Assembly: GCA_028290305.1 (NCBI GenBank)
Contig: JAQGKC010000083.1
Span: forward strand, 1 to 64,000
Origin: Bradyrhizobium sp.
Lineage (GTDB): Bacteria > Pseudomonadota > Alphaproteobacteria > Rhizobiales > Xanthobacteraceae
Reading direction: 5' to 3'
Length of the DNA stretch: 64,000 bases
This document shows, one piece after another, positions 20,582-48,273 of this stretch. Both the position numbers and the translations under genes were made by a program. The notes under the pieces were generated by a model. The model saw only the letters and a list, made by a program, of their open reading frames with translations, was not told the origin of the DNA and ran no database searches. The first letter of the stretch is position 1, and the number at the start of each line of letters is the position of its first letter.

Positions 20582-20604
20582 GATTTTCACTCTTTCGCCG
20601 ACCC

Positions 20605-22588: not shown

Positions 22589-22725
22589 GATGATGCTTTC
22601 GGCGCCTTCAAACCGGATACGATCCTGTTACCGGCGGTTTGCCCCTGATGGTTGGAAAGAAAAGGCATCCGAATGCAGCAAGTCACGGCGTTGCATCCAG
22701 CCTTCGTGAACGGCTCGCGCGGATC

Positions 22726-23694: not shown

Positions 23695-23746
23695 GGCATG
23701 ATATCCTCTGAACTTGCGACGGCCACCGGCAAGGCTATCGTGCCTA

Positions 23747-25171
23747 TCACGATGCAAGATCCGTTCCCGTCAATCCCATCGCCTTGATCGCCACGGCTTT
23801 CTCCGACCCGAAAGCGCCAGCATTGATTGCAGTGGGCGCAAATTCAACGCGCCGGAATTTCATCTGGTCCTCAAACGGCACCGTGGCATCGATTCCCAAT
23901 TTCGTGCGTATTCCGTCCTTGCTGACGCGCACATATTCGTGCCCGCGCGCCCCCGGAATGAGCACAAGATCGGATGAAGCCTCCATGCGTGTCGCGAGCG
24001 CATATTCGACATCCGCCGGATCGCGGATGTCGATGTCGTCGTCAACAACGGTAACGAGGTCGAGGTCCTTCAGCGCACCGAATGCCGCCATCATCGCGTT
24101 CCGCTGCAAACCATTGTGCTGGCGGCTTTGCTTCCTGACCTGGATGACGACATGGAATCGATGCAATCCGCCGGCCGTCATTTCCACATCCGTCACGATC
24201 GGAACAGACGATTGCAGCACCTTGAGAAGACTTGCCTCGAGAACGTATTTGCGCAGCATGATGGTCTCACGCCCGAATCCGTTGATGACATGATAGATCG
24301 GACGTTTGCGGTGCGTGACGGCGGTGATCTGTAAAACCGGCGCATCCGCCGCGGGCGCGGCAAAGCCGACAAACTCTCCGAACGGCCCCTCCGGCGCGAC
24401 TTCGTCGGCGAGAATCTTTCCTTCGAGGACGAACTCGCCCTCGGCAGGCACGAGAATATCCTGAGATACTGCCTTCGCGACCTTGAGCGCTCTGCCGGCC
24501 AAACCGCCCGCGACCGCCAGTTCGTCGGCGCTTTCCGGCATTTGCGATCCCATCGTCGCCGCAGTGAAATGCAGCGCCAGATCGGTGCCGATGCAGACCG
24601 CGACGGCAAGTGCTTCACCCTTTTCCTTCGAACGCTCGAAGGCGAGCCGCATATGGCGGCCAAAGTCGAGCTTGATGGCGACACGGTCCGGGCCCAGCAA
24701 CTGCAGCCGATGATAGGACGCGTTGTAGATTCCGGTGACCGGATCCTTCACCACGACGATACCGGCCGTTATGTAGCGACCGGCATCGCCGGGGGCGTGG
24801 AACAGCGCCGGCAGCTTTCCGATATCGATGTTCGCGGTCTCGATCACTTCCTGAACCGGCGCATCGGCGACCAGTTCCGGCGCCAGCGGCGCGCCCATCG
24901 CGCGCTGCACCAGGCTGCGGATTCCATTGAAATCGATGCCGAAGGCGGCCTCGCAGTTTTCCCTTGAACTCAAGAGGTTGCCAATGACGGGGATGTCGTA
25001 GCCTTTGACCGAGGGAAACAGCAGCACCTTGTCACCATCGAGCTTCTTGAGGATGGCAGCGACTTCGAGGTGCGGATCGGCAATCCCGTTGAACGTCAGA
25101 ATTCTGTCGTTGTGCGACAAACGCGACAGCGCCGATCGGAAGCGTGTGTCCAGAACCTGTAACTTCGACAT
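23747..25171 (-). CDS. UbiD-family prenylated-FMN decarboxylase (second copy)
   Basis: Second UbiD enzyme (474 aa from ATG 25171). It shares the family segments with the copy at 11115: HRLQLLGPDRVAIKL, EVAPEGPFGEFVGFA and EYALATRMEASSDL. It is first in an operon with tctCBA and a thiamine enzyme, so it probably decarboxylates an imported aromatic or heteroaromatic acid. Its promoter (25257-25284) contains the 17-base palindrome shared with three other units in this region, implying MarR control. No ubiX is adjacent; the one at 12671 may serve it. Confidence 0.87.
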   Translation of the reverse strand: MSKLQVLDTRFRSALSRLSHNDRILTFNGIADPHLEVAAILKKLDGDKVLLFPSVKGYDIPVIGNLLSSRENCEAAFGIDFNGIRSLVQRAMGAPLAPELVADAPVQEVIETANIDIGKLPALFHAPGDAGRYITAGIVVVKDPVTGIYNASYHRLQLLGPDRVAIKLDFGRHMRLAFERSKEKGEALAVAVCIGTDLALHFTAATMGSQMPESADELAVAGGLAGRALKVAKAVSQDILVPAEGEFVLEGKILADEVAPEGPFGEFVGFAAPAADAPVLQITAVTHRKRPIYHVINGFGRETIMLRKYVLEASLLKVLQSSVPIVTDVEMTAGGLHRFHVVIQVRKQSRQHNGLQRNAMMAAFGALKDLDLVTVVDDDIDIRDPADVEYALATRMEASSDLVLIPGARGHEYVRVSKDGIRTKLGIDATVPFEDQMKFRRVEFAPTAINAGAFGSEKAVAIKAMGLTGTDLAS

Positions 25172-25256
25172 GCCGCCCGGGTTCCCCAAGTTCGTCGCGG
25201 TCCGGTTCGCAGAACTTCGCGCAAGTCCCGTCACCGCACGCAACTTTTATCGAAAA

Positions 25257-25284
25257 ATAATAGCTATGCTACAAAGCTAGTCAA
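25257..25284 (-). promoter_or_regulatory. ubiD-tctCBA promoter with MarR-type operator in the spacer
   Basis: On the minus strand: -35 TTGACT (25284-25279), 16-base spacer, -10 TATTAT (25262-25257). The 17-base palindromic motif AGCTATGCTACAAAGCT (plus strand, 25262-25278) fills the spacer. The -10 ends 85 bases before the ATG. A protein bound there would exclude RNA polymerase. Confidence 0.68.
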
Positions 25285-25330
25285 GCCTGCTAAATGAGCA
25301 CCCGACGATCAAGCTCTCCACATTCGATCG

Positions 25331-25891
25331 TTACTCGATGGCTTCAGTGAGCCGGCCATCGCCGCGAACCCGTCCGGCCGCTTCGGCAATCACGTCGATA
25401 TCAGATAAATGCGCGGCAATCTGGCCGCTATCCTTCAACGCCGACATAACGACATTGCGAAGCACAGCGCGAACGTCTTCAGGCGTGGCCGGTCGGTGCT
25501 GCGGCGCTTTCAGTCGCAGGTAATCCGCCAGCAGATCATTCTCGATCCGCTCCGCGGATAATTCGCTGGCTTTGATTTTCGATCTCAGGCGCTCGGTCGC
25601 CCGATTGGGTGCGGGCGAAGGCCCCGACTTCAGGGCCACGCGAAACGCGCGGAGCGGACGCACGACCTGCTCCCGCCATGGAGAGCAGATGCCGTCGATC
25701 TCCTTAAGATCGGACGGCTCGAACAAAACTCGATGTCTGACAGCCGCAAAAGCCGCGAACAGAAGGATGATGACGTCCGTGCCCGCCTTGGCTTGAAGGG
25801 CCAGGCAGGATTCCGCTACCCGCGGCTGTTCGTAAATCTCAAGCGCAAACGCCCAGCTCTCGGCATCAAGGCCGCGGTGAGATCGCTTCAT
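25331..25891 (-). CDS. TIGR02444-family conserved protein
   Basis: Protein of 186 aa, with AGGA seven bases before ATG 25891; an ATG three codons earlier is possible. The N-terminal pattern W-x-FALEIY with PRVAESCLALQAKAGTDVIILLF matches the TIGR02444 family, small cytoplasmic proteins of unknown role common in proteobacteria. It is helix-rich with no signal peptide. It is separated from the cupin gene by 71 bases and may be a housekeeping gene unrelated to the surrounding catabolic units. Confidence 0.66.
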   Translation of the reverse strand: MKRSHRGLDAESWAFALEIYEQPRVAESCLALQAKAGTDVIILLFAAFAAVRHRVLFEPSDLKEIDGICSPWREQVVRPLRAFRVALKSGPSPAPNRATERLRSKIKASELSAERIENDLLADYLRLKAPQHRPATPEDVRAVLRNVVMSALKDSGQIAAHLSDIDVIAEAAGRVRGDGRLTEAIE

Positions 25892-25962
25892 GGCCGACAT
25901 CCTGATAGCCGAATGCGAAATCTCCTAGTGATGCCTGTTTAACACTCACCGCGGTGTCGGGT

Positions 25963-26343
25963 TCACGCCGGATCGAAGTAATGAATCTCCATCAGCACAC
26001 AGCCGGTTTCGGACTTGAACGGACCGTGAAATGCGCCCGGCGGCCGGCAGGCATAGGTGTTCGGCTTGAACGCTTCACCGCCTTTGCCATGTTCATCGTT
26101 GCCGACCGTCAAGTCGCCGGAGAACAGAAACACTTCTTCCCAATATTCGTGAACGAACGGCTTTGTGGTATAGACACCGGGCGCGAAGCGCAGCAGTCGG
26201 GTCCGGCTGCCGCGCTTGTTGGTCTCGTCGAGCGCTCCCGACAGGATTTTCTGCTGAATGCCCGCGGGGTACCCGGTCGGCGTTTCCCATCCCTTCGACA
26301 TGTCGAGGGTGTGGAATTCATCGTGGGCCTTGTTGATAGCCAT
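25963..26343 (-). CDS. Cupin-domain protein
   Basis: Small (126 aa) single-cupin protein. The metal-binding motif is visible as HEYWEEVFLFSGDL (His, then Glu-Glu) and the second half as PPGAFHGPF (His). It lies 20 bases after the HpaB stop and shares that operon. Proteins of this type act as ring-opening or thiol dioxygenases, isomerases or sensors; here a step after hydroxylation is plausible, but nothing in the sequence decides it. Confidence 0.78.
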   Translation of the reverse strand: MAINKAHDEFHTLDMSKGWETPTGYPAGIQQKILSGALDETNKRGSRTRLLRFAPGVYTTKPFVHEYWEEVFLFSGDLTVGNDEHGKGGEAFKPNTYACRPPGAFHGPFKSETGCVLMEIHYFDPA

Positions 26344-26363
26344 TTGGGATTCTCCTGGGAGGG

Positions 26364-27866
26364 CTAGGCGACCGCGCGGGTCGGGGAAGTCTGGTTGGTT
26401 TTCGCACCGACCTCGTCGGCCAGATCATAACTGGACAGCATCCGGTCGAGCAACGACGTTGCCGCATTCCAGTCATAGGTACGGAAGGCATGTCCCTTGG
26501 TAACAAAGGTCGCACCGGCATAGAACATTTCATACTGCGCATGGCGTGAGGCGAATTCCGAGCCGACAGCGTCCCACGCCAGCTTGTAGAATTTCACCTT
26601 GTCGATCGCGCTGGCCGCAGGCGACTGCTGAGTCTTTCCGATCAGCCGCGCGACCTCCGGATTGTTGAAATCCTTCACCGACGATGGCAGCATGATCATT
26701 CCGCCGCCGGCCAATTCGCGCAGTGTGTTGATGACCTTGGCGTAGAGTTGCTGCGTCAGGGTCTGTGCCGCATAGAGCATTCGCCGGTCCGGCACGAAAT
26801 AGGCGCCACGTTGTTGGCCGCTGGTCTCCATCGCCACAACAAACGCATCGACCATGCTGGCTTCGGCAGACAATTGCCCCAACGTCTCGCGCACCTGCGG
26901 AAATCCGGTGATGCCGTTGGTTTCGGCGGTGCGGTGCGCGATGCCCAGAAGAAAGCGAAGCTTGATCGAGAGCCGGATCATGGCCTGATAGTTCTGATAG
27001 ACGTGCGCAGGCGTCGCGTGAAACTGCTTTTGGCACATTTCGATGCTGTCGACGACAAACACCCGCTCCCACGGAACCTTGACATCGTCGAAATAGAGCA
27101 CGGCGTCGTTTTCATCAAATCGGCTGGCCAACGGATTGTCGAACACGGACGGCGCGGCCGCCTCATAGGATTTTCGCGACAGTATCTTCAGGCCCTTGGC
27201 GTTCATCGGGACCGCAAATGAGATGGCGTATTTCTCGTCTCCCGGCTGCAGTGGCTGGATACAGGTCACAAAGACCTCGTTTGCCATGATGCCGCCGGTT
27301 GCGAGCATTTTCGCGCCCCGCACCGTAATGCCATCCGCATCGCGATCGACGACTCCCGCCGACAAAAACGGATCGCTTTGCTGAGCGGCGCTCTTGGAAC
27401 GATCGGCCTGCGGATTGATGATCACGTAAGTGAGGTAAAGATCGTTGTCCCGCGCGTAACGGTAATAATCCCCAAGCGCCTTGGCGCGTGCAGGATCATA
27501 CGCTTCGAAAACCTCGCAGCCCATATACATCCCGGAGATGCAGGACGCGACGTGATCGGGAGCCCGTCCCATGAAGCCTGCATGGAGTTCGGTCCACGCC
27601 TCGAGACCTTTGCGGCGGGTCACAAGTTCGTCATAGCTCGCGGGAAGTTGCCAGATTCGATTGGCCCGCGTACCCGTCTCGGTTTCGAACGTCATCAATT
27701 CGCGATTTTCGGGAGCGCTTTGAAAATCGAACATCCGTCCGATCGAGGCGATCGCGCCACGATAGGCGGAATGGGTCGTGACATCATCGACAAGCTCGCC
27801 ATCGAGATAAATCTCGCGGCCATCGCGCAAGCTCGCAATATGCTGTTCGCCACTCTTGATCATCAC
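26364..27866 (-). CDS. HpaB-family two-component flavin hydroxylase (copy 1)
   Basis: Oxygenase component (500 aa) of the 4-hydroxyphenylacetate 3-hydroxylase family, which uses reduced FADH2 supplied by a separate reductase to hydroxylate aromatic or heteroaromatic rings. Segments include RVFVVDSIEMCQKQFHATPAHVYQ (around 270-295), the central PWER motif, and the C-terminal GSEFASRHAQYEMFYAG. It is 34 bases downstream of the reductase gene, so both components are made together. A second copy is encoded at 36799-38313. Other family members attack chlorophenols, nitrophenols or pyrrole-2-carboxylate, so the substrate is open. Confidence 0.86.
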   Translation of the reverse strand: MMIKSGEQHIASLRDGREIYLDGELVDDVTTHSAYRGAIASIGRMFDFQSAPENRELMTFETETGTRANRIWQLPASYDELVTRRKGLEAWTELHAGFMGRAPDHVASCISGMYMGCEVFEAYDPARAKALGDYYRYARDNDLYLTYVIINPQADRSKSAAQQSDPFLSAGVVDRDADGITVRGAKMLATGGIMANEVFVTCIQPLQPGDEKYAISFAVPMNAKGLKILSRKSYEAAAPSVFDNPLASRFDENDAVLYFDDVKVPWERVFVVDSIEMCQKQFHATPAHVYQNYQAMIRLSIKLRFLLGIAHRTAETNGITGFPQVRETLGQLSAEASMVDAFVVAMETSGQQRGAYFVPDRRMLYAAQTLTQQLYAKVINTLRELAGGGMIMLPSSVKDFNNPEVARLIGKTQQSPAASAIDKVKFYKLAWDAVGSEFASRHAQYEMFYAGATFVTKGHAFRTYDWNAATSLLDRMLSSYDLADEVGAKTNQTSPTRAVA

Positions 27867-27899
27867 ATCCCTCGATCAGCTTCGTTCATCGACGAAAAT

Positions 27900-28430
27900 T
27901 CAGTAGTGCATCGGGAGCGGCCATTCGGGGCTGCGCTCGTTGCCGGCAAGACTTCGATAAGTACCACGAAAGAAAATCAAAGGCTCCTTCTGCGGATATG
28001 CCGTGAACCTTTTGACCCGGCCAACGAAGATGACATGGTCGCCGCCATCATGATGCGCATAGGGCGTGCATTCGAAATGGGCAAGGGCGCCGGCGATCAG
28101 CGGCGCCGCATTGTCACCGAGCGTGTGCTCGACCGCTGTCCATTTGTCACCCAGCGCCTTCGCGAACTTGTCGGACAGATGCTCCTGGTCGCGGCCCAAT
28201 ATATTCACAGCATACCCCTTGGCCTCGATCATGGCATTGAGGCTGAACGACCTGCGGTCAATCGAGAACAGAATGAGCGGCGGATCGACGGAAACGGAAT
28301 TGAACGAACTCATGGTCAGCCCAACAGCGCTGCCATCGGCGGCCTGGGCGGTGATGACGGCCACGCCGGTGGCAAATTGGCCGAGTGCCTGCCGAAACGA
28401 CCGCGGATCCAGGTCGAGCGCCACGCCCAT
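27900..28430 (-). CDS. Flavin reductase (HpaC-like)
   Basis: NAD(P)H:flavin reductase (176 aa), the partner for the HpaB oxygenase. Family marks are RQALGQFATGVAVIT near the N-terminus, TMSSFNSVSVDPPLILF and the late GDHVIFVGRV. ATG 28430 is chosen because GGAGG lies five bases upstream; a GTG two codons earlier overlaps that site. It starts the operon reductase-HpaB-cupin. The operator-like palindrome at 28448-28464 is only 18 bases before the start. It is the only such reductase in the window, so it may serve both HpaB copies. Confidence 0.87.
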   Translation of the reverse strand: MGVALDLDPRSFRQALGQFATGVAVITAQAADGSAVGLTMSSFNSVSVDPPLILFSIDRRSFSLNAMIEAKGYAVNILGRDQEHLSDKFAKALGDKWTAVEHTLGDNAAPLIAGALAHFECTPYAHHDGGDHVIFVGRVKRFTAYPQKEPLIFFRGTYRSLAGNERSPEWPLPMHY

Positions 28431-28447
28431 TTTCACCTCCGCTATTT

Positions 28448-28464
28448 ACCTTTGTTACAAAGCT
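28448..28464. promoter_or_regulatory. MarR-type operator between reductase and MarR genes
   Basis: ACCTTTGTTACAAAGCT: a near-perfect palindrome (AGCTTTGT/ACAAAGCT half-sites, one mismatch) between the minus-strand reductase gene and the plus-strand marR gene. It is the most symmetrical of four related sites (25262, 28448, 33945, 38379). Position suits repression of the reductase operon and perhaps autoregulation of marR. Confidence 0.65.
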
Positions 28465-28595
28465 ATATGATCGGAGGCGACGCTGTCAAGAACCCGCCTG
28501 TGGTCGGACGACACGGGTGCCGTTGTCGAGGCCGGCCGATCTTGTTGTTCTGGTGATCGGTGGTTATAGAAATGCAAACGATGTGCGGAGCCCGA

Positions 28596-29162
28596 ATGGC
28601 CACGAAGACCAGATCCCGGAAAGTCACGATCGAATCCACGGTGACGCGGCCCGAGCTGCTGGTCGAGGGATCGGACCGGGCGTTTCGCCAGTTCGTTCAC
28701 GACACGCTGGCCTTTTCCGCGCGCCTGCAGCAGGTGCGGGGCCAGCTCGGACAAGTCATCGGCCTCTCGGGAACGCAATACACCGTGTTGATCGCCATCG
28801 CCCATCTGCACGGGCTGGATGAAAGAGTCGGCGTCAACCTCGTGGCCGACCATTTGCATTTCAGCGGCGCTTTCATCACCATCGAGATCAACAAGCTGGT
28901 CGCTGCCGGCCTGGTCGAGAAGGAGATCGACTCCGAAGATCGCCGGCGGGTTGTCCTCAGCATTACGCCGAAGGCGCGGGCGTTGCTCAACGAGCTGGCG
29001 CCAGTACAACGGCCGGCCAACGACCTGCTCTTCAGTTGTCTGTCCGCAAAGGATTTCAGCAAGATCGGGAAGCTGATGTCCGAACTGGTAGAGACCGCTG
29101 ATCAGGCCATTCGGTTGCTGGAATACACCACCCCGATCGCGGCGGCGCGGTCGGCAAAATAA
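28596..29162 (+). CDS. MarR-family regulator (copy 1)
   Basis: Regulator of 188 aa. GGAG six bases before ATG 28596 sets the start. It has a winged-helix core (LVADHLHFSGAFITIEINKLVAAGLVEKE as the recognition region) and a basic N-terminal arm. After it comes ELLVEGSDRAFRQFVHD, also found nearly unchanged in the MarR copy at 34077-34718. Divergent from the reductase/HpaB operon with the palindromic operator between them. MarR proteins usually repress catabolic genes until the aromatic ligand binds; I infer that role for the four units carrying the shared site. Confidence 0.86.
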   Translation: MATKTRSRKVTIESTVTRPELLVEGSDRAFRQFVHDTLAFSARLQQVRGQLGQVIGLSGTQYTVLIAIAHLHGLDERVGVNLVADHLHFSGAFITIEINKLVAAGLVEKEIDSEDRRRVVLSITPKARALLNELAPVQRPANDLLFSCLSAKDFSKIGKLMSELVETADQAIRLLEYTTPIAAARSAK

Positions 29163-29220
29163 CTCGCCGGCGCAGCGCATCCGCCGAGACGCTTGCGGGA
29201 AAGAGCGATCTTCCGAGCGT

Positions 29221-29955
29221 TCACGCTTTCGCATGGCGGGCCTCATTGGCGCCGGCGCCGAGAAACGTCTCGGAGACGATGGAATCCTGCGCAAGCTCGC
29301 TCGCCGTCCCTGACGTCACCATGCGGCCGGTCTCAAGCAGATAGGCCCGGTCGGCGAATTTGAGCGTTTGCCGGGCCTTCTGCTCGATCAACATGATCGT
29401 CAAACCTTCGGCGCGGAGCTCTCCGATCATGCCAAAAACGTGCTCGGTCATTTTCGGCGCCAGTCCCAGCGAAGGCTCGTCCAGCAGCAGCAAACGGGGT
29501 TTGGAAAGGCACGCTCTCGCGATCGCCAGCAATTGCTGTTCGCCGCCGCTGAGAAGGCTCGCCAGCCGGTGACGCCGCTGCTCCAGAATCGGGAACCGGG
29601 CTAACATCCGCTTGACGTCCGACGCCGCCTCTCGTTTGTCCGAACGGCAGTAGATGCCCATGAGCAGGTTCTCCTCGACCGTCATGCGCGCGAGAATGCC
29701 CCGCCCCTCCGGCACCAGCGAGATGCCGGCTCGCAGATTTCGTTCGGCGGCATTGGGCTTCAACAGGCGATCCTCGAAACGAATATCGCCATCGAACGGC
29801 AACAGCCCCGCGATCGCGCGCGCGATGGTGGTCTTGCCAGCCCCATTGGCACCCAGCAGCGCGACGATTTCACCTGCATTGATGTCGAGATCGATTCCCC
29901 GGACTGCGGCTACGGAACCGTAGTGAACCCTGAGGCCGCGGACCGACAGCATCAT
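29221..29955 (-). CDS. livF: Branched-chain-type ABC transporter ATPase LivF (importer 1)
   Basis: Second ATPase (244 aa) of a Liv/HAAT importer. Walker A GANGAGKTT, signature LLSGGEQQLLAIARA and Walker B LLLLDEPSLGLAP are intact. Its start overlaps the livG stop. These importers carry amino acids, amides, urea or aromatic acids; the local context points to an aromatic or heteroaromatic acid. Confidence 0.92.
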   Translation of the reverse strand: MMLSVRGLRVHYGSVAAVRGIDLDINAGEIVALLGANGAGKTTIARAIAGLLPFDGDIRFEDRLLKPNAAERNLRAGISLVPEGRGILARMTVEENLLMGIYCRSDKREAASDVKRMLARFPILEQRRHRLASLLSGGEQQLLAIARACLSKPRLLLLDEPSLGLAPKMTEHVFGMIGELRAEGLTIMLIEQKARQTLKFADRAYLLETGRMVTSGTASELAQDSIVSETFLGAGANEARHAKA

Positions 29956-30704
29956 GCGTCCGCCCCGAGATAAGCGTCCATGACGACCGGATTCGTCCGC
30001 ACCTCGTCCGGCAGTCCCTGGGCGATCAAAACGCCGAAATCGAGCACGTAGAGATAATCACAGAGGTTCATGACAAAGCTCATGTCGTGTTCGATCAGGA
30101 GTATGGTCAGGCCATCATCGCGCAAGCGCAACATCAGGTGACGGATCTCTTCCGCCTCGTCGTGATTCATTCCGGCCACCGGTTCATCGAGCAGCAAGAC
30201 CTTCGGTCCAGCCGTCAACGCCCGCGCCATCTCGACTTTCCTCTGGGTGCCATAAGACAGCGAGCGCGCGCTCTGGTCACGCACGCTCTCAAGCCCGAAA
30301 AACGCCAGGACCTGCTCCGCACGCGCGATGGCGGCGCGATCGGTCCAGCGCGTCGGCAGCGCCCGCCGCAGCAACGAACCCTGCGCCGGTTGCGCCACCA
30401 GCAGGTGTTGCCACACCGTCATGCTTCCGAACAACCTGATGTTCTGGAACGTCCGCACGACGCCCGCCCGGGCTATGCGATAGGAACGCCACTGCGTAAT
30501 CGGCGAGTTGTCGAAAACCACCTCCCCGCCATCGGCGCGATAGGCGCCGGTGATGACGTTGAAAAGCGTCGTCTTGCCGGCGCCGTTAGGACCGATGACA
30601 CCGACGATCCGCCCTTGCGGCACTTCGCAGGAAAGTCCGGACAGAGCCGTGATTCCGCCAAAGGATTTGGTGACGTTGCTCAACTGCAGCAATGGCTTGC
30701 TCAT
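29952..30704 (-). CDS. livG: Branched-chain-type ABC transporter ATPase LivG (importer 1)
   Basis: First ATPase (250 aa): Walker A GPNGAGKTT, signature SYGTQRKVEMARAL, Walker B VLLLDEPVAGMN, and the LivG-specific C-terminal extension ending in a DAYLG motif. It overlaps livM by four bases and livF by four bases, so the whole set is translationally coupled. Confidence 0.92.
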   Translation of the reverse strand: MSKPLLQLSNVTKSFGGITALSGLSCEVPQGRIVGVIGPNGAGKTTLFNVITGAYRADGGEVVFDNSPITQWRSYRIARAGVVRTFQNIRLFGSMTVWQHLLVAQPAQGSLLRRALPTRWTDRAAIARAEQVLAFFGLESVRDQSARSLSYGTQRKVEMARALTAGPKVLLLDEPVAGMNHDEAEEIRHLMLRLRDDGLTILLIEHDMSFVMNLCDYLYVLDFGVLIAQGLPDEVRTNPVVMDAYLGADA

Positions 30705-31537
30705 GCCGCGCGCCTTCGAAACGTCATCCGCCGAAACAGGCTTCGGTCGAGAATGCCCTGGCGCCGGACCAGCAGCACGACAATCAGGAGAGCACCGAAC
30801 GCGGCGAGCCGCCAGTCGGCCAGCGCGCGGAGTTGCTCCGGCAACAGCACCAAAAGCGACGCTCCGACCAGCGAGCCCGCCCCGATCGTCGATCCGCCGA
30901 GAATGACAGCGAGAACGAAATCGATCGATCGCTCGAAGCCGAAATTGCCGGGTTCGATATAAACGTGATGATGGGCGAAAAGGCCGCCTGATATCGCCGC
31001 GACCGCGGCGCTCAGTCCGAATGCTCCCACCTTCGTCATCGTGGTGTTGAGGCCGATCAGGTTCGCGGCGGTCTCATCGTCGGCGATGGCCCGCATTTCC
31101 AACCAGAGCCGAGACGATTCCATCAGCCAGACCAGAAGCAGGATCAGGCCCACCCAGATCCAGATGTAGGAGACCGACACATGCGCCATGCCATGAAATC
31201 CCTCCGCGCCACCGGTAGCGTCGAGATTGAGGAACAGGCTGCGCGTCATTTCCCCAAAACCAAGCGTGGCCATGGCGAGAAACAGCCCTTTCAGGCGCAG
31301 CGCAGGAAAGCCGATCAACAGGCCAACCAGTCCCGACGTGACTGCGGCGATCACAAGCGCTGGCGTCAGCGCCATGCCGCCTTTCACCGTCAGATAGGAT
31401 GTCAAATAGGCGCCGATCGCCATGAAACCCGCATTGCCCAGCGACAACTGGCCGGTCGCAAGGATGATGTAGACGCTGAGCGCGCCCAAGGTGAGGATGC
31501 CGACATCCGCCAAAAGACTCGCGTAATAGGTCGACAT
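30701..31537 (-). CDS. livM: Branched-chain-type ABC permease LivM (importer 1)
   Basis: Membrane subunit (278 aa) with about eight hydrophobic segments. The family region GAYLTSYLTVKGGMA and the ATPase-contacting loop around ADDETAANLIGLNTTMTKV are recognisable. It shares one base with the livH stop. It is slightly shorter than the usual 300-plus residues at its N-terminus. Confidence 0.9.
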   Translation of the reverse strand: MSTYYASLLADVGILTLGALSVYIILATGQLSLGNAGFMAIGAYLTSYLTVKGGMALTPALVIAAVTSGLVGLLIGFPALRLKGLFLAMATLGFGEMTRSLFLNLDATGGAEGFHGMAHVSVSYIWIWVGLILLLVWLMESSRLWLEMRAIADDETAANLIGLNTTMTKVGAFGLSAAVAAISGGLFAHHHVYIEPGNFGFERSIDFVLAVILGGSTIGAGSLVGASLLVLLPEQLRALADWRLAAFGALLIVVLLVRRQGILDRSLFRRMTFRRRAA

Positions 31538-32415
31538 CAGACGCGCTGCCCCTGGTCGGCGCCGCTGCCGCCCAGCAAGCCCTGTGGTCGAAACAGCAGA
31601 ATCAGGATCATGAAGCCATAGACCACGAAGTCACGGATCTGCGACCCGCCATAGGCGACCGTCAGCACTTCCGCGATGCCGATCAGCGGCCCGGCGATGA
31701 GCGCACCCCAGATCCGGCTGGTGCCGCCAATCACCATGACGGCGATGGCCTTCAGTCCAATCTCGACGCCGACATAGGGCGTGATCGCCGCGTAATGCAG
31801 TGCGATCAATACCCCGGCGGCGCCGGCCAGCGCGCCCGACATCATAAACGCGATCAGCGTGATGCGACTTCCGGAGACGCCGAGCAGCCGGGCGACGTCG
31901 CGATTTTCGGCGACCGCCCGCAATGCGCGGCCGATCGGCGTGCGCTGCACGATGTAGGCGATGATCGCAACCAGTCCCACGGTGGCGCCAAGGACGACCA
32001 ACTGAATGTCTCCGACGCTTACAGGACCCAGCGTGACGCGGCCTCCGAGCAAATCGTCCGGCAGTTGCAGGGGATCCGATCCCCAGACGTTGGTCGCGAC
32101 ATTCTGGAGAATGATTGAGAATCCGAGTGTACTCAGCATCGGCGTCACAGCGGGTGCATCGCGCAACGGCTCATAACCGACCTTCTCGATCACGACGGAT
32201 ATCAGCGCCGCGCCCGCCATCCCGGCCGCGACCGCCAGTGGCAATGGCAAATGCGCGGTGATGACCGCGAAACCCAGATAGCCGCCGATCATGAACAACT
32301 CGGCAATCGCCAGATTGAGAATTCCAAGGATTCCCATCACGATCGAGAATGACAAGGCGAGCAGCGTATAAACCGCTCCCAATGTCACACCATTTACGAG
32401 CTGCTGAAGAAACAT
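31537..32415 (-). CDS. livH: Branched-chain-type ABC permease LivH (importer 1)
   Basis: Membrane subunit (292 aa, the standard size). It begins with the typical MFLQQLVNGVTLGAVYTLL and contains the ATPase-contacting loop around RAVAENRDVARLLGVSGSRI. It lies about 150 bases downstream of the binding-protein gene, a common arrangement that leaves room for a hairpin to dampen downstream expression. Confidence 0.91.
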   Translation of the reverse strand: MFLQQLVNGVTLGAVYTLLALSFSIVMGILGILNLAIAELFMIGGYLGFAVITAHLPLPLAVAAGMAGAALISVVIEKVGYEPLRDAPAVTPMLSTLGFSIILQNVATNVWGSDPLQLPDDLLGGRVTLGPVSVGDIQLVVLGATVGLVAIIAYIVQRTPIGRALRAVAENRDVARLLGVSGSRITLIAFMMSGALAGAAGVLIALHYAAITPYVGVEIGLKAIAVMVIGGTSRIWGALIAGPLIGIAEVLTVAYGGSQIRDFVVYGFMILILLFRPQGLLGGSGADQGQRV

Positions 32416-32568
32416 CGATCTTCTACCGCCATTGCCGCGAATGCTCGACGAAAACTCGCCAGCGTCTCGCGCTCATCATGCTTGCACAAACCTTGTCGGC
32501 AATGCCGTACGCGGGGCAAGCAATATCCCCCCGTATCCTGGATTTGACGAACCGACGGCTTTATCGGC

Positions 32569-33807
32569 TCAGCAGGCGGTATGACCGGGCGCCGAACTGC
32601 AGCCATGGACCTTTGTCGACCATGCGCCATTCTGCCCCTGCAATACGTAGAACGATTTGACGGCATCGCCGTCGTCGTTGAAGCTGATCGGGCCGCCCAA
32701 TCCCTGGAAATCCCGAAGCTTGACCAGGTAATCGCGAATCTTGACGCGATCGGCTTCAACATCCTCTGGCTTGCCCGTCACGCCGGCATTCTTTGCCGCA
32801 TCCACATACATGCTGACGGTCTCGTAGATGTTGGCATCGTACATGCTGGGCTCGATTTCCGCCGGCAGGCTGGATTCCTTGCGCAACAGCGGCTGAAGCT
32901 CGGCGACGAACGCGGTTGGCCGGTCTCCCTGCATCGAAGCAAAGAACGTAGCGGGCGCGACGATCGGCAGCTCGGGAGCGGCCTTGAGAATCGCCGACGA
33001 AATCAACTGGGTTGCACCCACGACCGGCTTGATGAATCCCTGCCGCTTCATCTCGCGAAGCACCGTCACGGCCTGGCTGTAATCGGCGCTCAGCACCACG
33101 CCATCCGGATTGAGCGACTTCATCTTGGTCACCTGGGCACTGACGTCGAGATCGCCCGTATTGAAAGAAAGCGGGTCGTTCTCGTTCGCGATCGTGATGC
33201 CGTTTTCCTTCATCAGCGGCGGCATGATCTTGGTGCCCACGGTGGCGGCCGTGGCGTCCTTGGCGTCGAAGATGATCGCGACCGACTTGATATTGAACGT
33301 CTTCTGGAAATAGGGAACCGTCGATTTCGCGAGAATCCCTTCGTCGATGGTATTGCGGAACGCCCACGGCCGATTTGCCTTGGCAACGCCGGGCTTCGAA
33401 GATGCCTGCGACATCGCCACGACCTTCATTTCGTTGGCGACCGGGAAAGTCACCTCCGCCGCACTGCTGGTCAGCGGGCCGGCGATGGCGAGGACGTTCT
33501 CGTCGCCGGCCAGTTTGCGCAGCGAACTCGCCGCCTGAGCCGGCTTGGTCGCGTCGTCCAGGATGATCAGTTTGAGCTTTGCGCCGTTCACGCCGCCGGC
33601 CTTGTTGACCTGCTGCTCCAGCATCTTCAGCGTCACGGTATTGGTGCGGCCCCATTCCGCAAACGGTCCACTGCTCGGGACAATCGCACCGATCGCGATT
33701 TCGCGACCGGCGAGACTCTGCGCCGCGGCCGGACCAATCGCGGCGAATGAAATCTGAAGGATGACTGCGGCAAAAAGTCCGCCAAGTTTGGCGCCCGTCG
33801 ATATCAT
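32569..33807 (-). CDS. livK: Branched-chain-type ABC solute-binding protein (importer 1)
   Basis: Periplasmic binding protein (412 aa). ATG 33807 is chosen for the GAGGAG upstream and the Sec signal that follows (MISTGAKLGGLFAAV to AAAQ). The type I fold is shown by IAIGAIVPSSGPFAEWG and IAGPLTSSAAEVTFPVANE. It is the first gene of livKHMGF. Upstream are a perfect TATAAT and, just before it, the shared 17-base MarR-type site, tying uptake to the nearby enzymes. Confidence 0.88.
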   Translation of the reverse strand: MISTGAKLGGLFAAVILQISFAAIGPAAAQSLAGREIAIGAIVPSSGPFAEWGRTNTVTLKMLEQQVNKAGGVNGAKLKLIILDDATKPAQAASSLRKLAGDENVLAIAGPLTSSAAEVTFPVANEMKVVAMSQASSKPGVAKANRPWAFRNTIDEGILAKSTVPYFQKTFNIKSVAIIFDAKDATAATVGTKIMPPLMKENGITIANENDPLSFNTGDLDVSAQVTKMKSLNPDGVVLSADYSQAVTVLREMKRQGFIKPVVGATQLISSAILKAAPELPIVAPATFFASMQGDRPTAFVAELQPLLRKESSLPAEIEPSMYDANIYETVSMYVDAAKNAGVTGKPEDVEADRVKIRDYLVKLRDFQGLGGPISFNDDGDAVKSFYVLQGQNGAWSTKVHGCSSAPGHTAC

Positions 33808-33935
33808 GAGTGAACTCCTCGAAATTGGAAACGACGCTTGGATGCCCGGCTCCAGGGCCTGCCGGTGCTTGCACAGGCCATGCCAGCGCCCCTGCCGCAA
33901 CCATGATTCCTCAAAATAAGCCGAATGACAAACAA

Positions 33936-33961
33936 ATTATAAACAGCTTTTAGACAAAGGT
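33936..33961 (-). promoter_or_regulatory. livK promoter -10 with MarR-type operator
   Basis: On the minus strand, TATAAT at 33941-33936. Three bases upstream of it is the operator AGCTTTTAGACAAAGGT (plus strand 33945-33961), covering the space where -35 contacts occur. The -35 itself is weak. A half-site-like AAGCTATT follows at 33970-33977. Confidence 0.58.
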
Positions 33962-34076
33962 TCTATTGGAAGCTATTTTATCTGACGGCGCCTCTCGATG
34001 TCTGCCCTGCTGCAAAAAGCGCCTGCGCCGCTCAGTTGTTGGGCGGCGACGGGTCCCAAGTGCCAGACCACACGGC

Positions 34077-34718
34077 TCAAGACAGCTTGGTCTTTCGAGG
34101 CGTTTTCTGTCGGCCGCCAAGTTCGGCGACGATCGGCTTCGCGTTCAGATCCGACAGATAGCGCTGCAGCGCCATCGCCTGCTCGCTCGATTTGACCAGC
34201 CGCTCGACCATATCGGTCAGCGATGCAAATTCCTTCGCCGTGAGGCAGCCGAACTGGACGTCGTTGACCTGCGTCTGAATCGGCGCCAGACGTTCGAGCA
34301 TATCCCTGCCGCGCGCCGTCACCGTCAGACACAGGCGGCGCTTGTCCACGGGGTGGCTGGCTTTCTCGATCAGTCCCTTGCTCAGAAGCTTGTTGGTGAT
34401 GACGGTGGTGAAGGCGCCGCTGAGATGAAGATGATCGGCGACATCCTTGACGCTGACGTCCCCTTCAGCGGCGAGATGCCCGATCGAGATCAGCATCGTA
34501 TATTCGATACCCGCGAGGCCAATGACCGCGCCATGGCCTTCGCGAATGGCGGAATGGCGGGCGAGAAAGCCGAACAGGTTATGGACAAGGCCTCGAAACT
34601 TCTGGTCGGAGCCCTCTACCAGAAGCTCCGGCTTCGAAATCGTCAGCGCTGCCCGCCGCGGAGGCTTGACCGCGACCGGCTTGACCGATGTTGAGGCCAG
34701 ATTACGTTTCCGTTCCAT
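34077..34718 (-). CDS. MarR-family regulator (copy 2)
   Basis: Regulator of 213 aa, a paralogue of the one at 28596. They share PELLVEGSD, the VIGL[AS]G segment, the ADHLHxSGAF recognition region and the spacing of the C-terminal helices. It has a longer basic N-terminal arm (MERKRN onward, several Lys/Arg and prolines). It lies just upstream of livK in the same direction with the D site between its stop and livK. I infer both MarR copies read the same or overlapping palindromes. Confidence 0.86.
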   Translation of the reverse strand: MERKRNLASTSVKPVAVKPPRRAALTISKPELLVEGSDQKFRGLVHNLFGFLARHSAIREGHGAVIGLAGIEYTMLISIGHLAAEGDVSVKDVADHLHLSGAFTTVITNKLLSKGLIEKASHPVDKRRLCLTVTARGRDMLERLAPIQTQVNDVQFGCLTAKEFASLTDMVERLVKSSEQAMALQRYLSDLNAKPIVAELGGRQKTPRKTKLS

Positions 34719-34797
34719 TGCACTTCCATAACAAGACGAATGTCGTAGCACCTTGGCCGGTTCGCCCCGAGGTTACAATGACCTCATGAGGCAATTG

Positions 34798-34833
34798 GAT
34801 CATGATCCGATTAGATTGAATCCGATCATGATC
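34798..34833. repeat. 15-bp inverted repeat
   Basis: GATCATGATCCGATT (34798-34812) and AATCCGATCATGATC (34819-34833) are inverted with one mismatch and a 6-base loop. It lies in the marR/amidohydrolase gap just before the larger palindromic element, and has the look of a related intergenic repeat or of a strong RNA hairpin. Confidence 0.6.
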
Positions 34834-34847
34834 TGATCTCTTTGTTT

Positions 34848-34921
34848 GAGCATGATCTCCGCGCAAACGCTTCGCGTTTGTCGCGAGGGAAAACCGGTTT
34901 CCATTTTTCCGGATCATGCTC
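34848..34921. repeat. 74-bp imperfect palindrome, Bradyrhizobium-type intergenic repeat
   Basis: The ends are inverted (GAGCATGATC at 34848, GATCATGCTC at 34912), with an inner exact hairpin CAAACGC-TTC-GCGTTTG (34864-34880) and a central AAACCGGTTT. From memory this closely resembles an element dispersed in intergenic regions of Bradyrhizobium and relatives. It ends exactly at the stop codon of the amidohydrolase gene and may serve as its terminator. Confidence 0.7.
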
Positions 34922-36117
34922 TAGTGAACAGCGCCGGAGAAATCGCGCGGCAACGCACATTGAACGACCCGCACGTTTCGTATCGATGCCGGCGTATTGC
35001 GGCTGCGACCGACAAATCGCGGGACGCCGTCTGTAAACACCGCAGCGACCGCGGGAACGTCGCCATTGCGCAGGGCGGACAATGCATCGGGTTGCGAGCC
35101 GCCGGCGCAGGCGTCGATGAGCACGACATCGGCATCCTTGCCGACCTCAAGCATTCCCGAGTTGAGCCGGTAAACTCTGGCGTTATTTCCAGTCGCGGCC
35201 GCGATCGCCTGTTCCGGCGGCATGCCGCCAAGGCTCGCGAGATGGCTGATGGTGTAGAACATCCCCAATGGCATGATGCCGCTTCCGGTCGGCGTATCGG
35301 TCGCGATCAGCAATCGCTCCGGCTGGCCCGCATCATCAAGCAGTTTTGCGGTCAGCAATGCCGTTCGCAAATTTCCGGCCGTGCAAAGCTGCAGCGCGAT
35401 GTCGCTTTCATTGACCAGCCGCGCAAAGCCGGGCTCGGGCATCGCGACCGGACCGCCATTGACGTGGAACGACACGCTCGGATTGGAGGCGAGCACGTGC
35501 TCGGCCCAGATTCCGGACGAGCCCGGGATCGACGACCCGCCGGTATGCATGGTGGTGATCATGCCGAGCCGGCGCGCGGCCTGCATCAGAGAGGCATACT
35601 CGAACGGCGTTTCGAACGCGCCGAAGCCCGCCTTTGCCAGCCACAATCCCTGCGCAACTAAATCCCCGAGGTCCGCCTCGGTCAGTCCGGGCTCGAGGAT
35701 GACCGAACCGGCGTGGACGCGCATGCCGCCCGGCCGATAGTCGAGGAAGCAGGCGCGCGCAGCCAGCGCAAGCGCCTTGACACCCGCCGGATCTTTCGGC
35801 CGGCCGGGCACATGAACTTCGGAAGCCGTGATGGCGGTGGTGGTGCCGCCGTGCAGATAGCTCTCGAGATACCCGACCGTGCGCTGGCGCGGCGTGTAAT
35901 CCCCGAACGTGATGTGAACATGACTGTCGATCAGACCGGGAATTGCCGTCGTGCCGGCGGCATCCACCACCACATCGCACGCGGCCACCTTGTCGGACGA
36001 CAACGTGCCGATCTCGGAGATCGAGCCATTATCGAGCAGGATGTCGCTGCCCGGACCGACCGGCGATTTCAGATCGCCCGTGACGATGACGCCGATGTTG
36101 ACAATAGCCGTGCGCAA
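34921..36117 (-). CDS. Enamidase-like amidohydrolase
   Basis: Cytoplasmic metal-dependent amidohydrolase (398 aa). Metal-site segments are DSHVHIT, MHTGG, HVNGG and LIATDTPTGSG. Many long stretches match what I remember of enamidase from Eubacterium barkeri nicotinate fermentation (6-oxo-tetrahydronicotinate to 2-formylglutarate): NIGVIVTGDLKSPV at the start, DYTPRQRTV, HVPGRPKDPAG, GGSSIPGSS and RSRNTP near the end. I therefore infer hydrolysis of a cyclic enamide or lactam. It follows a DUF1185 gene by 12 bases and ends an operon begun by HpaB copy 2. Confidence 0.82.
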   Translation of the reverse strand: MRTAIVNIGVIVTGDLKSPVGPGSDILLDNGSISEIGTLSSDKVAACDVVVDAAGTTAIPGLIDSHVHITFGDYTPRQRTVGYLESYLHGGTTTAITASEVHVPGRPKDPAGVKALALAARACFLDYRPGGMRVHAGSVILEPGLTEADLGDLVAQGLWLAKAGFGAFETPFEYASLMQAARRLGMITTMHTGGSSIPGSSGIWAEHVLASNPSVSFHVNGGPVAMPEPGFARLVNESDIALQLCTAGNLRTALLTAKLLDDAGQPERLLIATDTPTGSGIMPLGMFYTISHLASLGGMPPEQAIAAATGNNARVYRLNSGMLEVGKDADVVLIDACAGGSQPDALSALRNGDVPAVAAVFTDGVPRFVGRSRNTPASIRNVRVVQCALPRDFSGAVH

Positions 36118-36129
36118 ACCATCCCCCTC

Positions 36130-36706
36130 TTACCGCAGCCCGTCCTTGCCGATGATATCCTTGGCCGCGAGGCCACCGACCCGCGCGTTGAGCCGCCCCC
36201 GGTTCGCCAGGCAGACGATCAGCGCGACCTCGTCGGCCGCGGGCGCGTCAGACGGCAAGGTAATCGACACGCCATCATAGTGCGATCTGACGTAGAGAGC
36301 GTCTTTGTGTGCGAGCGGCACATCGATCGCACTGCCCGGCGCCGCGAGCTTCGTGAAGGAAGGGATCCAGGCCTCGGCGCCTCCAACCGCTTCGCGCAGC
36401 GGTGCGGCGAAGACGGTCGTCAGCATGGCATTCGCATGCTCCAATTCGCCGCCAAGGCCGACAACCCCGCCCTTGCCATGACTCTCGATCTTGTACGACC
36501 CCATCAATTCGACCGCGAGCTTCGCCAGGGTCCGGCCGACCTCGGCGCTGGCCTCGATCGCTTCACTTAAATCCTCGGCATAACCTCCGGCGTAAGGGTT
36601 TCCCACCACTGCGACCGACGCGGCGCAGCGGCAGCGCATGCCGACGGCCGGCCTCGACTTCCCTGTGATCCCAAAACGACAGCAGGCGGCGGATATCGAG
36701 TTTCAT
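36130..36706 (-). pseudogene. DUF1185 (amino acid synthesis family) gene with a frameshift
   Basis: From ATG 36706 (AGAGG upstream) the frame reads MKLDIRRLLSFWDHREVEAG, matching the start of the intact paralogue at 47712-48272, but it ends after 48 residues. The rest of the protein (GNPYAGGYAEDL to the C-terminus) continues in another frame from about 36625 to 36130. One extra base in the run CGCCGCG near 36619-36626 explains it. Family segments LGGELEHANAML and SAIDVPLAHKDALYVRSHYD are intact. It is either a recent inactivation or a sequencing error. Confidence 0.72.
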
Positions 36707-36798
36707 CAGAGACCTCTTGGAACCAGGCGCGGGTTCGTAGCGAGCTTATCCAGCGTCATCATCGAACGTGTGGACCGGAGTGACCATGAGCACCCATA

Positions 36799-38313
36799 TC
36801 AAGCGATGTTCCCAGCGCTTTGCTTCGAATCTTCCAGATCGTAACTGTTCATGATCTGCGTTGCCATCGCCGTTGCACGATCCCAATCATAGGTACGATA
36901 GCTGTGACCTCGCGTGACGAACTGGGCGCCGGCATAGAACATCTCGTATTGCAGATGGCGGGAAGCGAATTCCGAGCCAACGGCGTCCCAGGTCAATTTC
37001 AGCAGCTTGACGCGGTCCTGGCCCGTCATGACCGGAGACACCTGCGTCAGCGAAATCATGCGGGCGATTTCCGGATTATCGAAATCGGCTGCCGATGATG
37101 GCAGCATCATGAGCGCCCCGCCCGCCAACTCCCTGATCGTGTTGATGACGACTGGATACATCTCCTGCGACTGAACCTGCGCCGCATACAGCAGTTGCCT
37201 GTTGGGCAGGAAATATTCGCCGCGCATGGCGCCGCCGGCTTCCATACCAAGCACCATGCCTTCGATCAGGGATGCCTGCGACGCCAGCTTGCCAAGGACA
37301 TCGACGACCGGCGGGAAATTGATCGTGCCGATGGTCCGCGCGATCCCTCTCGCGAGGCCGACCAGAAAGCGCAACTTCACCGACAGCCGGATCTGCGCCT
37401 GATAGTTTTGGTAGACATGTGCCGGCGTGTCATGAAGTTGTGCGCGGCACATATCGGTGTTCCGCAGCACGAAGACGCGCTCCCAGGGAACCTTCACGTC
37501 ATCGAAGAAAATCAGCGCATCGTTTTCATCGAAACGGGACGACAACGGATTATCGTATTCGCTGACCGCGCTTGCCTCGAACGACTTGCGCGACAGCATA
37601 TTGAGGCCTTTGGTGCCCATCGGCAGCGCGCACGAGAAGGCCAGATGTTCCTCGCCCGGCTTCAGCGGTTGACCGGAGCCCACGAAGATTTCGTTCGCCA
37701 TGATCGCACTGGTGGCGAACAGCTTGGCGCCGCGAATCGTGATTCCCGCTGCGTCCTCATCGACGATGCGTGCAACCATATCTTCCGCGTTCTTGCCCTG
37801 ATCGCCGAACGCCTTGGACCGGTCGCCCTGCACGTTGTTGATCACGTAGGTTAGAAACAGATCGTTTTTCCGCGCATGGTCGTACCAGTCCCGAAAGGCG
37901 CGGCCGCGCTTCTCGTCGTAATTGTCGAATACCTCGATGCCCATCATCATGCCCGACATGGAGGATGCCACGTGATCCGGAGAGCGCCCCAGAAATCCGC
38001 ATGAGACTTCGGCCCATTCCACCAGGGCCTTGCGGCGCTCGGCCAGCTCGGCGTAACTGCGAGGCAACTGCCAGCATCGATTGACGCGGCAGCCGCCACC
38101 AAGGTCGAAGGTCATGCGTTCGACGTTTTCCGGCCTCGACTGATAGTCGTAAAGCGCGCCGGCCGACGCCACCGCGTTGCGGTAGGCCGGATGCACGGAA
38201 ACGTCGTGGACGAGTTTTCCATTCAAATAGACCGCACGACCGTCGCGAACACTTTCGATGTGCTCCGCGCCGTTTTTCACCCGGCGGGACTGCGGCAACC
38301 CTGGATTGGTCAT
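36799..38313 (-). CDS. HpaB-family two-component flavin hydroxylase (copy 2)
   Basis: Oxygenase component (504 aa), clearly paralogous along its length to the copy at 26364: both share RDGR-x-x-YL-x-G-x-LV-x-DV near residue 22, DHVASxxSGMxMG, the FFDDVKVPWERVFV segment and GSEFASRHxQYEMFYAG. No reductase is adjacent, so it probably depends on the one at 27900. It heads the operon HpaB2-DUF1185-amidohydrolase and has its own promoter with the shared 17-base site. The two copies may act on successive or related substrates. Confidence 0.86.
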   Translation of the reverse strand: MTNPGLPQSRRVKNGAEHIESVRDGRAVYLNGKLVHDVSVHPAYRNAVASAGALYDYQSRPENVERMTFDLGGGCRVNRCWQLPRSYAELAERRKALVEWAEVSCGFLGRSPDHVASSMSGMMMGIEVFDNYDEKRGRAFRDWYDHARKNDLFLTYVINNVQGDRSKAFGDQGKNAEDMVARIVDEDAAGITIRGAKLFATSAIMANEIFVGSGQPLKPGEEHLAFSCALPMGTKGLNMLSRKSFEASAVSEYDNPLSSRFDENDALIFFDDVKVPWERVFVLRNTDMCRAQLHDTPAHVYQNYQAQIRLSVKLRFLVGLARGIARTIGTINFPPVVDVLGKLASQASLIEGMVLGMEAGGAMRGEYFLPNRQLLYAAQVQSQEMYPVVINTIRELAGGALMMLPSSAADFDNPEIARMISLTQVSPVMTGQDRVKLLKLTWDAVGSEFASRHLQYEMFYAGAQFVTRGHSYRTYDWDRATAMATQIMNSYDLEDSKQSAGNIA

Positions 38314-38656
38314 GCGACGGTTTCTCTTATGCTGCGAGACATCGATCCATCATGCTGGCCCTAAAGCAATTGCATAATAGCTACTATACGAAGCTATTTC
38401 AATCATAAAAAATTCCGGTACGCAATTCTGAACTGTGAGCGCCGCCGCATTGTTGCCTGCCGCTGATAAATTCAAGCGTGCCTTCGCCGAGTTCGACTGG
38501 CATGGTCATTGCTAGACCGGCGTCGCGGAAACGGCCACGCTAACGGCGTATCGGTTTCGCAGCGCTGGGATGCCCCGACCGGCCTTCCGCCTGCCGGCGC
38601 GAGCATTGTAAAAGAAGCCGGTGCGAACGAGTGACTGATGCGAAGCTGGAACGATC
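38314..38656. other. Divergent promoter region, HpaB2 / flavoprotein
   Basis: About 340 bases. The HpaB2 promoter and operator lie at 38374-38402 (listed separately). On the flavoprotein side I see no clear promoter. No gene is supported here. Confidence 0.45.
38374..38402 (-). promoter_or_regulatory. HpaB2 promoter with MarR-type operator in the spacer
   Basis: Minus strand: -35 TTGAAA (38402-38397), 17-base spacer, -10 TATTAT (38379-38374). The site AGCTACTATACGAAGCT (plus strand 38379-38395) fills the spacer, the same layout as at the ubiD promoter 13 kb away. The divergent flavoprotein gene may share it. Confidence 0.68.
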
Positions 38657-48272: not shown

Positions 48273-48273
48273 G

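Follow-up and report, generated by a model that had tools for sequence, protein, structure and literature searches.

Regulators of the MarR family usually act by steric repression that is relieved by a ligand, and one of them, HpaR, regulates homoprotocatechuate (hpa) degradation, a pathway with an HpaB-type monooxygenase. Two MarR genes, encoding IadR (MarR_73) and IadR2 (MarR_50), occur in the iad auxin-degradation locus of Variovorax and Bradyrhizobium; IadR binds a site between itself and the target operon, from which the substrate releases it in the authors' model, and the DNA site of the second MarR is not identified in the sections consulted (PMC9613470). Here, we describe a 64,000-nucleotide stretch of Bradyrhizobium sp. 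(contig JAQGKC010000083.1, positions 1 to 64,000; hereafter the window) in which two paralogous MarR genes, marR1 and marR2, accompany four 17-bp candidate operators upstream of ubiD2 (site 1), a flavin reductase gene (site 2), livK (site 3), and hpaB2 (site 4). On the basis of sequence comparison, the two MarR paralogues are probably repressors that share overlapping operators and control one modular catabolic island. Literature searches, judged mainly by titles and abstract openings, yielded no paper apparently describing this regulon. A plasmid search returned 13 records, every one below 60% identity, and the best 120 of 6104 matches to the HpaB2 protein carried generic names only.

The four sites reported in the initial annotation are present, with the letters given there, at 25262..25278 (site 1, AGCTTTGTAGCATAGCT, minus strand), 28448..28464 (site 2, the perfect-palindrome class), 33945..33961 (site 3, marR1-type, ACCTTTGTCTAAAAGCT, minus strand), and 38379..38395 (site 4, AGCTTCGTATAGTAGCT, minus strand). 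The nine positions said to be shared by all four are correct (1, 3, 4, 10, 11, 13, 14, 15, and 17), as are the intergenic placement of every site and the location of two of them (25262 and 38379) in −35/−10 promoter spacers of 16–17 nt, where each overlaps the first base of the −10 hexamer. The consensus originally drawn from these sites has six window matches at up to three mismatches (four places, two on both strands), a number reached in 0 of 100 shuffles (mean 0.45, largest 3); because it was fitted to those same four sites, this count is circular, and the consensus was rejected as sole evidence in favor of matrices from which the window was excluded.

An alignment of 43 sequences of MarR1 and MarR2, including 2 from the window, served to scan a genome collection for relatives; the best 80 of the 192 encoding stretches in that scan constitute the loci (L numbers) onto which 36 window genes were mapped. 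The marR1 set comprises 61 loci and the marR2 set 23, with five in both and L063 in neither; gene absences may reflect contig ends. Matrix I combines 43 sites, 27 of them distinct, that flank marR1 in other genomes; the marR1 sites of L013–L016 are not among them. Among the 63,984 window positions, it ranks 28448, 25262, and 33945 first, second, and third; the top two scores are unmatched in 5.9 million simulated positions, and 0.02 matches as good as the third are expected per 64 kb. The fourth-ranked match (30064) falls within the livG coding sequence and is regarded as chance. Site 4 ranks only ninth with matrix I, at chance level (4.9 equally good matches expected per window), because hpaB2 promoters conserve a different class, as promoter alignments indicate (see below); with a window-free hpaB2-class matrix, derived from 6 distinct orthologous hpaB2-promoter sites, it ranks first at 25.5 bits, with the runner-up at 17.5. 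Site 1 also ranks first with the window-free ubiD-class matrix (5 distinct ubiD-promoter sites). The observation of four above-chance sites is confirmed, and is better supported than could be known from the window. The proposal of one shared palindrome stands in part: a conserved MarR-type operator joins the units and three of the four sites fit matrix I, whereas site 4 represents a separate, orthologously conserved class. Beneath the single consensus lie at least two operator classes, with T at position 6 at the flavin reductase and ubiD promoters vs. C at hpaB2.

The palindrome AGCTTTGTNACAAAGCT, earlier derived as an ideal form, is the exact form beside marR1 genes of other genera. It occurs next to marR1 in 40 of the 61 loci at up to two mismatches and in 47 at up to three, five copies being perfect, and none of 198 scrambled palindromes (2 of 200 equalled the real half-site and were excluded) was found near marR1 in any of these loci. 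The rest of the same loci (980,466 positions) contain no AGCTTTGTNACAAAGCT at zero or one mismatch and three at two, one of which precedes a flavin reductase gene. Across 17 relatives' genomes (~111 Mb), matches with at most one mismatch occupy exactly one place in each of 14 genomes, always between marR1 and flavin reductase or hpaB1, and are absent from three; the many matches in unrelated coding regions that would have spoken against a regulon did not appear. Sixteen places have two mismatches in these genomes, including the cluster of one genome and a position ahead of a marR2-type gene; the other 14, all off-cluster, are not claimed as part of the regulon, because they do not outnumber the forward matches to a reversed-pattern control (18). 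A second set, of 18 genomes including two repeats, has six places with no more than one mismatch. Five belong to the cluster, and the sixth (G037) is unexplained; this site, AGCTTTTTTACAAAGCT at L143:3359-3375, precedes a 174-aa open frame lacking a Pfam match, and the search of its genome yielded a MarR2-type gene only. A further sequence, AGCTTTGATGCAAAGCT, is intergenic in two related genomes (L145:2645-2661 and L146:2575-2591), in L145 near genes for an E1 dehydrogenase and an FMN (flavin mononucleotide) reductase, and is a possible distant regulon member. Chains of palindromes with a common, self-complementary central AGCT and 13-bp spacing occur in L028, L029, L031, and L044, which suggests adjacent or overlapping dimers.

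The palindrome also accompanies its target genes when these are separated from marR1. In two Xanthobacter genomes, marR1 and flavin reductase-hpaB1-cupin are on different contigs, and in Bradyrhizobium sp. dw_78 they are ~30 kb apart. Three unlinked hpaB1 operons keep the palindrome before flavin reductase, with 0, 1, and 3 mismatches (L141/L155, L142/L156, and L158/L163, respectively), and the fourth hpaB1 (L157) has its own marR1 adjacent; this tally leaves out two more distant HpaB matches, at 54% (G002) and 36% (G043), the former without a site. In two further Xanthobacter genomes (L138, L139, L151, and L152), an unlinked liv-type operon is preceded, at ~70 bp, by a related site. The presence of the palindrome at operons unlinked from marR1 fits a trans-acting regulator.

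The ubiD2 and hpaB2 promoters each conserve their own version of the operator. Among aligned promoters, with rows picked because the site had already been seen there and the window included, CTTGACT-n2-CTTT-n6-TAGCTA is invariant in 9/9 ubiD2 promoters and ATAGCTTC-n6-TAGCTA in 7/7 hpaB2 promoters, with little else invariant in either. A strict operator-frame scan, in which divergent promoters were counted once per anchor gene, placed the site at 7/7 hpaB2 genes of at least 79% identity. For ubiD2 genes of at least 73% identity, it was present at 8/8, counting L019 by eye; two further ubiD2 relatives (L042 and L065) are operon-internal or cut by a contig end. A search pattern for the hpaB2 class, derived from already known sites including that of the window, matched upstream of hpaB2, once each, in 11 of 15 genomes searched; its 14 places in the 15 genomes also include two Xanthobacter liv sites and one unrelated place. 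Position 6 is T in 27 of 29 distinct marR1-class sites, a set including two sites beside marR2 genes (L056 and L071) that also entered the marR1-class matrix used for class comparison, vs. C in 6/6 distinct hpaB2-class sites. Paracraurococcus (L056, G016) encodes MarR2, with no MarR1 match, and keeps the hpaB2-class site; Nitratireductor (L019, G025) has MarR1 only and keeps the flavin-reductase- and ubiD-class sites. Four genomes carry a further MarR2-like gene beside DUF1185-amidohydrolase (L116–L119), with sites that resemble ACCTTCTTAACGAAGCT, a version of the hpaB2 class with greater symmetry.

Of the four sites, that at livK is the least conserved, and it appears to be compound. Aligned livK promoters, window included, share ATA.CTT in 6/6 and AGCTTC in 5/6, and the conserved block reads AGCTTC-n7-A[ACT]CT followed by the right half of site 3, forming three boxes 13 bp apart, of which the first is altered in L001. 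Orthologues of site 3 are degenerate (3 mismatches in L001, 5 in L015 and L016). An overlapping sequence, AGCTTCCAATAGAACCT (33958..33974, minus strand), has C at position 6 as in hpaB2 sites and could be the second half of a compound livK operator; given its low scores with both the hpaB2-class (8.0) and marR1-class (1.2) matrices, this box is weak.

The presence of two paralogous MarR genes in the region, as previously claimed, is borne out: the products of marR1 (28560..29162, plus strand; identified by Pfam MarR_2, tree, and AlphaFold2) and marR2 (34077..34751, minus strand) are 46% identical, both match PF12802 above the gathering score, and they fall in distinct clades, that of MarR2 having 24 rows and support of 100/99. 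The best AlphaFold2 model of MarR1 has a mean pLDDT (predicted local distance difference test) of 85.5, compared to 61.8–74.5 for the other four, and matches MarR structures (best E 5.1e-07); its helix 103–115, preceding the wing, is the predicted recognition helix by MarR convention. Across the 43 sequences (29 MarR1 and 14 MarR2), SGAF and T107 are invariant, and residues at positions 108/109/110 never overlap: I/M, E, and I/V in MarR1 vs. T/V/A, I/V, and T in MarR2, with the rule for positions 109/110 holding in 29/29 and 14/14, respectively. This split parallels that of the sites, which have a common outer AGCT and differing inner bases (T or C at position 6).

From these comparisons, which establish the sites, their conservation, their specificity, and their promoter positions, we infer binding, repression, response to a ligand, and the division of site classes between the paralogues as follows. 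MarR1 would bind site 2, the palindrome in its own divergent promoter, and also sites 1 and 3, which are weaker and asymmetric forms located at ubiD2 and livK, respectively. MarR2 would bind the related class AGCTTCGnatnnTAGCT at site 4, in front of hpaB2 and upstream of marR2 itself, and may also use the livK operator. A dimer of either protein, positioned on the −35/−10 spacer or the start region, would exclude RNA polymerase until a pathway ligand causes its release. Both genes are probably autoregulated, given that marR1 is divergent at site 2 and that marR2 follows site 4 in the same orientation. An evolutionary extension of this model is conceivable, if rather doubtful: with the duplicated MarR pair, a single ancestral operator may have diverged into two codes, distinguished mainly by one base pair per half-site (AGCTTTGT vs. 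AGCTTCGT), with helix positions 108–110 changing along and the outer AGCT and its contacts staying fixed; the three-box compound operator at livK (13 bp spacing) would be open to both, such that uptake is gated jointly and each enzyme module by its own paralogue.

Several observations weigh against operators shared by two paralogues in this manner. Many loci are closely related, such that counts across loci are non-independent. The classes mix: L056, with MarR2 only, has AGCTTTTCTTCAAAGCT by marR2, and L071 has AGCTTCGTGATAAAGCT; the marR1 sites of L020/L021 have C at position 6; and G033 and G035, which have MarR2 only, carry AGCTAAGTGACAAAGCT at ubiD2 and flavin reductase. Due to these exceptions, the MarR-to-class assignment is probable only. 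A motif search on 18 MarR2-clade loci without marR1 in the locus (L071 has marR1 elsewhere in its genome) gave no clean motif, the best being A/T-rich and holding AGCTTT. In the 80 loci, the 300 bp preceding hpaB2 genes of 59–73% identity, many of which are not first genes, lack the strict frame A[GC]CT-N9-AG[GC]T. That frame is likewise missing at the livK promoter in L001 and L013–L016, and site 3 therefore rests on its matrix rank and a weaker footprint. Near marR1, no site within three mismatches exists in 14 of the 61 loci; in five of these (L026, L043, L045, L049, and L051) it precedes flavin reductase elsewhere, and nine are unexplained. An HpaB search of seven genomes found no match in three, including that of L050, which has a one-mismatch site by marR1 despite having no hpaB1 match in the genome. 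Finally, the gap of ~170–200 bp between marR2 and the amidohydrolase gene in the window makes co-transcription of marR2 uncertain.

The same evidence bears on simpler or different assignments of the sites. It is unlikely that MarR1 alone binds all four with graded affinity, the class differences being conserved tuning and the targets of MarR2 lying elsewhere. Such an arrangement would account for the common outer AGCT frame, for the good scores of three of the four sites with the MarR1 matrix, and for the retention of asymmetric sites in MarR1-only genomes, where L019 has one of the ubiD type and L138 and L139 have a comparable one at an unlinked liv operon, but site 4 is at chance with that matrix and its class persists in L056, where MarR1 has no match. 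Much less probable still are MarR1:MarR2 heterodimers that integrate two signals by reading the asymmetric sites (one AGCTTTGT-type and one TAGCT-type half). Although the asymmetry is conserved class by class and one set of 18 genomes includes 14 with both paralogues (by identity to MarR2), a second set has only one such genome among 22, and a heterodimer is unneeded where an asymmetric site sits with one paralogue, as does the ubiD type in L019 and the hpaB2 type in L056.

The window also encodes a pair of GntR-FCD regulators (10089 and 13338) and an IclR (46718), any of which might bind the palindrome instead; this is highly improbable, as 47 of 61 loci have the site next to marR1 when three mismatches are allowed. 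Among the 80 loci, 6 contain relatives of the GntR at 13338 and none contains a relative of the IclR (the search covered these two but not the GntR at 10089). Least probable of all is a conserved block that is mainly core promoter with an A/T-rich spacer and an incidental palindrome: sites 1 and 4 do lie in promoter spacers and the ubiD2 −35 is conserved too, but spacer sequence is normally unconserved, and the palindrome tracks marR1 and hpaB1 genes, with near-uniqueness in the genomes of relatives and no occurrence of scrambled versions there.

Two modules recur in the 80 loci. The one beside marR1 consists of flavin reductase-hpaB1-cupin; the one beside marR2 consists of hpaB2-DUF1185-amidohydrolase and is frequently accompanied by liv genes. 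Of the 61 marR1 loci, 53 contain an HpaB gene, 48 flavin reductase, and 44 cupin; for the 23 marR2 loci, the counts are 19 for HpaB, 19 for DUF1185, and 17 for amidohydrolase. The modules are together in the window, L001, and L013–L016, and apart in many other loci, such that the single substrate proposed in the initial annotation is not borne out: the hpaB1-marR1 and hpaB2-DUF1185-amidohydrolase-marR2 modules are separate in other genomes. A model with two repressors and several operator classes is preferable to the original form with one motif and one substrate.

In the window, candidate site 1 fills the spacer of the ubiD2 promoter (−35 TTGACT at 25284–25279 and −10 TATTAT at 25262–25257, minus strand). 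The unit beneath it (18905..25243, minus strand; Pfam) comprises ubiD2 (23747–25243), tctC, tctB, tctA, and a gene for a thiamine pyrophosphate (TPP)-dependent enzyme (18905–20590), in an order identical in L002, L004, L005, L013, L014, and L016. Site 2 lies between the divergent flavin reductase and marR1 genes, just downstream of a TTGACA-16-TATAGC flavin reductase promoter (placed by eye; missed by the promoter scan); its unit (25331..28436, minus strand; Pfam and NCBIfam) consists of flavin reductase (27900–28436), hpaB1 (26364–27866), cupin (25963–26343), and DUF2390/TIGR02444 (25331–25900). A ubiX gene lies between the cupin and DUF2390 genes in L004, L005, L008, L013, L014, and L016. 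Site 3, supported by the third rank with the window-free matrix and by the aligned livK promoters, is upstream of the livKHMGF genes for a branched-chain-type ABC (ATP-binding cassette) transporter (29221..33900, minus strand; livK by Pfam Peripla_BP_6, the livHMGF names being those of the initial annotation), whose order is preserved in relatives. Candidate site 4 fills the hpaB2 promoter spacer (TTGAAA-17-TATTAT) ahead of hpaB2 (36799–38313), DUF1185 (36130–36639), and an enamidase-like amidohydrolase gene (34921–36117), which form a unit at 34921..38313 (minus strand; Pfam) with marR2 downstream on the same strand.

Divergent from hpaB2 across site 4 is a gene for a frdA-like flavoprotein (38657..40384, plus strand), whose closest solved relatives are succinate dehydrogenase/fumarate reductase flavoproteins; frdA-like genes 82–89% identical are linked with the same modules in L001, L014, L016, and L158, and this gene is possibly a further regulon member. 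Outside the four-site system, a second ubiD is followed by a ubiX-type flavoprotein gene (11109–13276), and a second DUF1185 gene adjoins an Amidohydro_2 gene (47712–49257), with liv-type transporter and Rieske oxygenase genes near, resembling a parallel catabolic module.

The amidohydrolase has only one strong solved relative, the enamidase 2vun (E 1.7e-97 over 383 residues; full-length homology), which we take to be the enzyme of Eubacterium barkeri. The best solved relatives of UbiD2 are 6h6v and 6h6x, presumably a furan-dicarboxylate decarboxylase. HpaB1 (342.6/305.0) and HpaB2 (262.9/282.8) both score below the TIGR02309/TIGR02310 cut-offs (480.2/885.2) and, by these profiles, are superfamily members rather than 4-hydroxyphenylacetate 3-monooxygenase equivalogs. 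Enamidase hydrolyses 6-oxo-1,4,5,6-tetrahydronicotinate, a cyclic enamide of nicotinate breakdown, according to the part of the source consulted (PMC7356986), and a two-component pyrrole-2-carboxylate monooxygenase of Rhodococcus (Becker 1997) is cited in the consulted part of another (PMC6165268). We infer the substrate from these relationships: a nitrogen heterocycle is the likeliest, because the closest solved relative of the amidohydrolase is an enamidase. UbiD would decarboxylate and HpaB/flavin reductase would hydroxylate the ring, which the enamidase-like amidohydrolase would then open. Together, the enamidase, UbiD2, HpaB, and pyrrole-2-carboxylate monooxygenase leads make it reasonable to propose, tentatively, a route in which a five-membered N-heterocycle acid is decarboxylated, hydroxylated to give a cyclic enamide, and opened by hydrolysis; the ring could also be a furan or of another type.

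The MarR pair described here, previously uncharacterised and found in Bradyrhizobium, Tardiphaga, Azorhizobium, Xanthobacter, and others, thereby gains concrete candidate operators and target operons, which provide a bounded gene set for a probable N-heterocycle pathway. HpaR (TIGR02337) belongs to the MarR family too, but MarR1 and MarR2 score 27.7 and 28.3 bits, respectively, against its cut-off of 121.2. BpsR (6pco/6pcp) has the MarR fold and, by PDB title, responds to 6-hydroxynicotinic acid, a ligand from N-heterocycle catabolism; its relation to the window MarR is a profile match only (E ~2e-9), with 24% identity in the fold match. The described enamidase acts in nicotinate catabolism, whereas the partners of the window amidohydrolase are an HpaB monooxygenase and DUF1185. 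The Rhodococcus pyrrole-2-carboxylate monooxygenase is, by its description, a two-component flavin enzyme acting on a five-membered N-heterocycle acid, and its link to HpaB1 and HpaB2 is a lead only. Like the iad locus, the window is a catabolic locus with two MarR genes; MarR1 is only a distant fold match to the Variovorax MarR structures (16% identity), and the key oxygenase of iad, as given in the sections consulted, is iadDE, as opposed to the HpaB type of the window. For the second MarR, the site of which is unidentified in those sections, a candidate class is proposed here; with candidate sites for both paralogues, the division of a regulon between paralogous MarR proteins becomes testable.

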